The notes under the pieces: model-generated
The model's input: the letters and a program-made list of their open reading frames with translations, nothing else
Told to the model about the DNA's origin: nothing
Database searches by the model: none
Translations under genes and position numbers: made by a program
In this document: piece by piece, positions 31,003-31,940 of the stretch
Position numbering within the stretch: the stretch's first letter is position 1
Layout: each line of letters starts with the position of its first letter
Source of the DNA: Nitrosopumilus cobalaminigenes
GTDB taxonomy: Archaea; Thermoproteota; Nitrososphaeria; Nitrososphaerales; Nitrosopumilaceae
NCBI RefSeq assembly: GCF_013407145.1
Contig: NZ_CP026993.1
Span: forward strand, 1,014,590 to 1,078,589
Direction of reading: 5' to 3'
DNA length: 64,000 bases

Positions 31003-31101
31003 TACTTGCGTGAGGAATTGTAATATTTAAGATCTTCATAATTAAATATTTTAAAACATGCTTGAGATTACCATCAAAACGAATCCAAAACATATCAAAT
31101 G

Positions 31102-31111
31102 TTTTTATATT
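31102..31111 (+). promoter_or_regulatory. TATA box of the DUF5654 pair
   Basis: TTTTTATATT lies 22-32 nt before ATG 31134, so the message should begin almost at that codon. This rejects the longer frame opening at 31062. Confidence 0.55.
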
Positions 31112-31133: not shown

Positions 31134-31385
31134 ATGGGTGACGAAGACAAATCAGCACCTCTAAAACAAGAAATTCTAGATAAAATAGCAGCACTAGTTA
31201 CTGCAGCCTTTGGTTTAGTTGCAGCTCTTGCATGGAATGATACAATCAAGGCAGTCTTCAAAGAAATTTTTGGTACTGCGGATGCAATTGGTCCGATGTT
31301 GATTTATGCCATCATGGTTACAATTATCGCAGTGATTCTAACAATTATTGTAGCACGTGCAGCATCAAGGGCAAAAAGTTCGTGA
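31134..31385 (+). CDS. DUF5654 membrane protein, copy 1
   Basis: 83 residues from ATG 31134 (MGDEDKSAPLKQEILDKIAA). Two hydrophobic helices, ALVTAAFGLVAALAW and MLIYAIMVTIIAVILTIIVA, are linked by NDTIKAVFKEIFGTADAIG. This matches the archaeal DUF5654 family of unknown function. Its TGA overlaps the GTG start of copy 2. The central 198 bp are nearly identical to those of copy 2. Confidence 0.8.
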   Translation: MGDEDKSAPLKQEILDKIAALVTAAFGLVAALAWNDTIKAVFKEIFGTADAIGPMLIYAIMVTIIAVILTIIVARAASRAKSS

Positions 31386-31627
31386 GTGCGTTGAGTACAG
31401 AAAAGTCATCATTATACAAAGAGATTTTAGATAAAATAGCAGCACTAGTTACTGCAGCCTTTGGTTTAGTTGCAGCTCTTGCATGGAATGATGCAATCAA
31501 GGCAGTCTTCAAAGAAATTTTCGGTACTGCGGATGCAATTGGTCCGATGTTGATTTATGCCATCATGGTTACAATTATCGCAGTGATTCTAACAATTATT
31601 GTAGCACGTGCAGCATCAAGGGCAAAA
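31179..31627 (+). repeat. tandem 198-bp duplication
   Basis: Bases 31179-31376 and 31430-31627 align without gaps. I count two substitutions over 198 bp, one of them silent. The unit spans the body of both DUF5654 genes. Confidence 0.9.
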
Positions 31628-31753
31628 TCAATGATGAGACAAGAAATTTTTCAATGCAAGTTGTGTGAATTTACAACAAAGATTGAATCTGAATTCATAG
31701 AACACACTATGAAAGAGCATGCTGCAAGTCAAGACAAATTCTTATCAAAATAG
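31382..31753 (+). CDS. DUF5654 membrane protein with C2H2 zinc finger, copy 2
   Basis: 123 residues from GTG 31382, translationally coupled to copy 1 (GTGA overlap). The first 83 residues repeat copy 1, with one residue changed in the core (Thr to Ala after WND). The added C-terminus holds a classical finger, CKLC-x12-H-x4-H (FQCKLCEFTTKIES...). A membrane hairpin fused to a DNA- or protein-binding finger is unusual. It ends one base before a converging small membrane protein gene. Confidence 0.78.
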   Translation: MSALSTEKSSLYKEILDKIAALVTAAFGLVAALAWNDAIKAVFKEIFGTADAIGPMLIYAIMVTIIAVILTIIVARAASRAKSMMRQEIFQCKLCEFTTKIESEFIEHTMKEHAASQDKFLSK

Positions 31754-31754
31754 A

Positions 31755-31940
31755 TTAGACCAGTGATGGTCTGTCATAAAAAAAGATAAAAATTACACCG
31801 CCTAAAATTACAAAGGAGGCCATAAAGTAGATTAACACATGTAAAATCCCTAAAATTTTACTATAGTAACTTCCGACAAAAATTATTACAACACCTATCA
31901 ATACAAGAAAAATTCCAATGCCCAGATTTACAAAATCCAC
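31755..31940 (-). CDS. small membrane protein, two helices
   Basis: 61 residues with two hydrophobic stretches, LGIGIFLVLIGVVIIFVGSYY and ILHVLIYFMASFVILGGVIF, and a polar tail YDRPSLV. The start is GTG 31938-31940. It converges on the DUF5654 pair with a 1-bp gap. No family recognised. Confidence 0.6.
   Translation of the reverse strand: MDFVNLGIGIFLVLIGVVIIFVGSYYSKILGILHVLIYFMASFVILGGVIFIFFYDRPSLV

Follow-up and report, generated by a model that had tools for sequence, protein, structure and literature searches.

Two overlapping archaeal genes share a nearly identical core, and one of them ends in a C2H2 zinc finger: How did the cores come to be so similar while the ends differ, and what might a finger do beside a membrane? 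We address these questions for genes A and B of the window, by which we mean the whole 64,000-nucleotide stretch of Nitrosopumilus cobalaminigenes DNA that was analysed. Concerted evolution and C2H2 fingers are both already known; what this pair offers is a small, clear case of the former in an archaeon that is not a methanogen, together with a relative in which an expanded intermediate can be seen.

The gene pair and its shared core

Gene A (31134–31385, + strand) encodes an 83-residue DUF5654 protein, a predicted membrane hairpin without a finger, and gene B (31382–31753, + strand), which starts at GTG, encodes 123 residues comprising a DUF5654 hairpin and a C-terminal C2H2 finger. In a Pfam profile search, both proteins match nearly the full 71-position model (PF18898), with 74.8 bits for A and 74.4 bits for B, far over the curated cut-off of 23.8 bits. 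The stop of A and the start of B, read directly in the sequence, overlap by four bases, GTGA (31382–31385, + strand). The shared core is an ungapped repeat at an offset of 251 (31168–31376 in A and 31419–31627 in B, both + strand) with 98% identity, extending slightly beyond the 198 bp first noted from the sequence alone. Within those 198 bp exactly two sites differ: 31242 (A/G, changing Thr to Ala) and 31271 (T/C, silent). The sequence-only reading had described overlapping, near-identical tandem DUF5654 genes, and this description is borne out. As to its further statement that the ends had diverged fully, the leaders do differ, but the finger tail of B is an extra part absent from A rather than a diverged end.

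To describe the protein encoded by B, we compared its hydropathy with an AlphaFold2 model. The model contains two long helices, residues 8–47 and 53–85, with pLDDT of 81–94 by blocks, and each encloses one of two hydrophobic peaks, at about residues 18–36 (31433–31489, + strand) and about residues 53–76 (31538–31609, + strand), fitting a predicted two-helix membrane hairpin. Arg/Lys residues follow the second helix (ARAASRAKSMMR), and by the positive-inside rule the C-terminus of B should therefore be cytoplasmic.

A TATA-like element, GTTTTTATATT (31101–31111, + strand), can be read 23–33 nt before the start codon of A, and it is also found before A at a similar distance in two related species, G038 and G075. 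Its position suggests a putative near-leaderless promoter for the pair, and the GTGA overlap points to possible translational coupling on a presumed single transcript. Upstream and divergent lies a gene for a CBS-domain protein (PF00571; 30604–31002, − strand), identified by Pfam and synteny, which marks the conserved locus. Convergent with B is a gene for a 61-residue protein of no known family (31755–31940, − strand), homologues of which also stand beside DUF5654 genes in G042, G045, G071 and G076; we regard it as a conserved neighbour and claim no part for it in the mechanism proposed below.

Age of the pair and homogenisation of the cores

The near-identity of the cores had been attributed either to a very recent duplication or to gene conversion. 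A very recent tandem duplication, confined to the window's lineage and leaving the finger tail on one copy only, would account for the mere two differences per 198 bp, and an exact recent tandem duplication does occur at the same locus in G038. This origin is nevertheless very improbable and is largely refuted by homologous junctions: G038 and G075 each have homologues of both leaders, of the finger tail and of the GTGA overlap of the window, in the same A-B order. The A leader is 83–86% identical to its counterparts in these species over 36 nt, and the junction alignments of both to the window are better than all 1000 shuffles. It also stands against a recent origin that the leaders and the tail show species-level divergence, likeness within the genome being confined to the core, and that a diverged A-B tandem is present in another genus (G145). 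In two further genomes, G076 and G136, A and B are on separate contigs.

We therefore return to an old pair with homogenised cores, the alternative of the two that survives this comparison. The synonymous divergence (dS) between A and B inside the window is 0.06 over a 207-bp core, while the same measure between the window and G038 or G075 is 0.82–0.94; a within-genome dS this far below the value of about 0.8–0.9 between species indicates that the cores have been homogenised. The core DNA tree gives a consistent picture, placing A and B of the window as sisters (support 100/97) apart from a clade of ten finger-bearing cores. A single clade of all finger-bearing cores is rejected by this tree (AU p 0.005), and constraining only B of the window and B of G038 together gives an AU p of 0.045; with the core protein tree, which has 69 columns, a single finger clade is not itself rejected (AU p 0.25). 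Alignment across relatives had been proposed in the sequence-only reading as a way to recognise within-genome co-evolution, and in that alignment the cores do cluster by genome, in support of homogenisation. Thus copies within a genome are closer to each other than to their orthologues, and the duplication predates the species split, as is characteristic of concertedly evolving tandem paralogues. Taken together, the comparisons support the view that the tandem pair is old and that its cores have been homogenised by gene conversion or unequal crossing-over.

The related species illustrate the possible routes. G038, whose array is known from one short metagenomic contig, has three copies in the order A1-A2-B, and the middle copy, A2, consists of the 5' part of B joined to the 3' part of A. 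Within the array, 325 bp recur exactly 254 bp further on, so that a 254-bp duplication makes the intermediate hybrid copy, as would be expected from unequal crossing-over. If a second crossover then took place closer to the 3' end, the outcome would be the arrangement of the window, in which two copies share a core but not a leader and only one has the tail; direct gene conversion would lead to it as well. The 5' core of A in G075 matches that of the next copy at 99.2% over 129 nt, while B has diverged in its 3' part (78% identity), indicating homogenisation of the 5' part only; this assembly has a break within the repeat. The homogenisation may be a neutral consequence of the copies lying in tandem.

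The closest published parallel for this process is the mtrA pair of methanogens, a different gene in a different lineage: these tandem duplicates show long-lasting concerted evolution with recurrent conversion, and one copy has undergone gene fusion or domain shuffling (PMC6053082). The archaeal cases of concerted evolution in that survey are from methanogens only, with none in ammonia-oxidising archaea (PMC6053082).

The finger tail and its possible partners

The tail of B comprises 40 residues (31631–31750, + strand), with the finger C92-K-L-C95-x12-H108-x4-H113 followed by a conserved end, HAASQDKFLSK. The placement of this motif at the C-terminus, beyond two hydrophobic helices, agrees with what had been read from the sequence; the claim that the finger is new does not. 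A profile of the tail run against 400 genomes of the class gave strong matches in 18, of which 14 are within the genus and four belong to two other Nitrosopumilaceae genera. The finger-bearing relatives of B are therefore in 17 genomes besides the window's; a genus-wide search had also shown relatives of B in many genomes. Loss of ligands in close relatives had been named as evidence against the finger, but all four ligands are kept, none varying across 12 full proteins and 14 tails. Among the window genome (G000), G038 and G075, the tail has a dN of 0.025–0.03 against a dS of 0.54–1.2, and on these rates the finger is under purifying selection.

How closely does this tail resemble known fingers? 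It has the classical C2H2 features (PF00096 and relatives), namely the spacing C-x2-C-x12-H-x4-H, an aromatic residue before the first Cys and a hydrophobic residue three before the first His, and its profile matches solved C2H2 fingers among PDB chains, including BCL11A (E 5.5e-5) and ZHX1 (1.1e-4). It differs from the classical type in that the single sequence of B gives only a sub-threshold C2H2 match, below the curated Pfam cut-off, that its contact residues are not DNA-like, and that it is joined to a membrane hairpin. No zinc-finger fold came out of AlphaFold2, either for the tail in the full protein (pLDDT about 57) or for the tail alone (pTM 0.29, low confidence); we infer the fold from motif and profile.

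The finger is not always attached to a hairpin. A stop precedes the decayed tail in G009, G071 has a decayed finger frame after A, and in G108 a free-standing 44-codon finger frame related to the tail of B lies directly upstream of a finger-less DUF5654 gene. From these three states it follows that the finger module can be joined, separate or lost. The remnants beside finger-less DUF5654 genes in G009 and G071 are at L115:5913-6128 (− strand) and L124:6205-6330, and the free-standing frame of G108 is at L126:6293-6424 (− strand). A finger-bearing gene in G074 is split by a frameshift (L146:5115-5527), through either true decay or an assembly error. One match on a Woesearchaeota contig, L091, seemed to reach the finger; it was rejected, as the matching segment is actually a neighbouring rubrerythrin-like frame. 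The rubrerythrin-like gene of this contig (L091:6244 onward) lies directly downstream of DUF5654.

According to the sequence-only reading, the finger could bind DNA and so tie it to the membrane by way of the hairpin. This proposal has some grounds: the C2H2 module is genuine by motif and profile, it is closest to fingers from eukaryotic DNA-binders, BCL11A among them, and the charge rule places it in the cytoplasm. DNA-binding fingers, however, carry polar or basic residues at helix positions −1, 2, 3 and 6 and a basic surface, while the finger of B has I/V, S/A, mostly E (E/K/T) and an invariant E at these positions, and 13 fused tails have net charges of −4 to +1. Moreover, it is a lone finger without basic flanks, and the same genome has several other small fingers that are basic and carry R/K at positions 3 and 6. 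We therefore consider the DNA tether unsupported and improbable; the contact residues and the net charge favour a protein-docking or structural role, and by its sequence the finger is probably protein-binding rather than DNA-binding.

A structural role would mean that the finger is purely a cap, stabilising an oligomer of hairpins with no outside partner. The finger begins within about 10 residues of helix 2, its conserved DKFLSK end suggests a fixed contact, and an unrelated membrane protein of the class also has C-terminal C2H2 fingers, all of which are consistent with such a cap. On the other side, many genomes conserve a finger-less relative of A on its own, so that the hairpin evidently can do without the finger, and the free-standing frame in G108 suggests a module that works by itself. 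We regard the cap as a possible but doubtful explanation, clearly ahead of the DNA tether, and we prefer a finger that docks a protein.

The window genome contains about 16 C2H2-like fingers in small frames of roughly 48–133 codons (e.g., L167-L176), and several of these are basic, resembling nucleic-acid binders.

A proposed mechanism and related proteins

The best reading of the locus, to which we give a probability of roughly 0.55, is an old, homogenised pair that supplies a hairpin with and without a cytoplasmic, protein-docking finger for mixed assembly. B would have gained its cytoplasmic C2H2 finger, or A would have lost one, before the genera separated. As the comparisons show, recombination between the tandem copies repeatedly makes the membrane cores alike in each genome, by conversion or by rounds of unequal crossing-over in which a unit of 251–254 bp is gained and lost, while the unique leaders and the finger tail stay orthologous between species. 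One promoter would serve both genes, with translation of B coupled to that of A by way of the GTGA overlap. Each product is predicted to be a membrane hairpin of two helices whose ends both lie in the cytoplasm, and A and B may co-assemble, in which case only some subunits would present a finger at the membrane surface. There the finger would bind zinc and dock a cytoplasmic protein, not DNA.

Co-assembly and protein docking are our best guess at the mechanism. B is present without A in many finger-bearing genomes, so a mixed oligomer is not obligatory. If the mixed-oligomer idea is true, DUF5654, a widespread archaeal family without known function, gains a testable role. A wider generalisation, that ammonia-oxidising archaea use membrane-held C2H2 fingers for docking proteins in the cytoplasm and that in the DUF5654 pair recombination keeps the subunits with and without a finger interchangeable, giving mixed membrane oligomers with a tunable number of fingers, is speculative and, as we see it, unlikely.

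It is instructive to place the pair among other DUF5654 proteins. The distribution is patchy, with 40 of 250 genomes of the family above the cut-off, and it extends to DPANN archaea, methanogens and Thermoplasmata, whose members share with A and B the two-helix hairpin and the AAFGLVAALAWN motif. The DUF5654 relatives examined outside Nitrosopumilaceae all lack a C2H2 tail. No recurrent gene came out when the neighbours at 72 DUF5654 loci outside the family were clustered, save for scattered ABC transporters and a synteny block in genomes of Methanomethylophilaceae type, and no recurrent neighbour there suggests a function. A holin reading was tried and rejected: it rested on weak, sub-threshold Pfam matches, and Foldseek returned nothing notable (no PDB hit; best viral E 1.3). 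The DUF5654 profile gave chance-level matches only against PDB sequences. In the literature searched we found no paper naming DUF5654 and none on C2H2 fingers of Nitrosopumilus, and the DUF5654-C2H2 fusion appears to be undescribed there.

The layout of B does have a counterpart elsewhere in the class. Two contigs from other Nitrososphaeria families encode a multi-helix membrane protein with two C-terminal C2H2 fingers (L185:232-921 and L186:280-909); the arrangement is the same as in B, but the membrane domain is unrelated and there are two fingers instead of one, marking an independent instance. Relatives of this membrane domain without fingers also exist. Because these proteins are unrelated to B, the membrane-plus-finger layout arose at least twice; in archaea where tiny C2H2 proteins abound, fusion of such fingers to a membrane protein has thus taken place on at least two occasions. 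A 619-codon frame in another genome of the class, G279 (L183:1-1320), also ends in a similar C2H2 finger.
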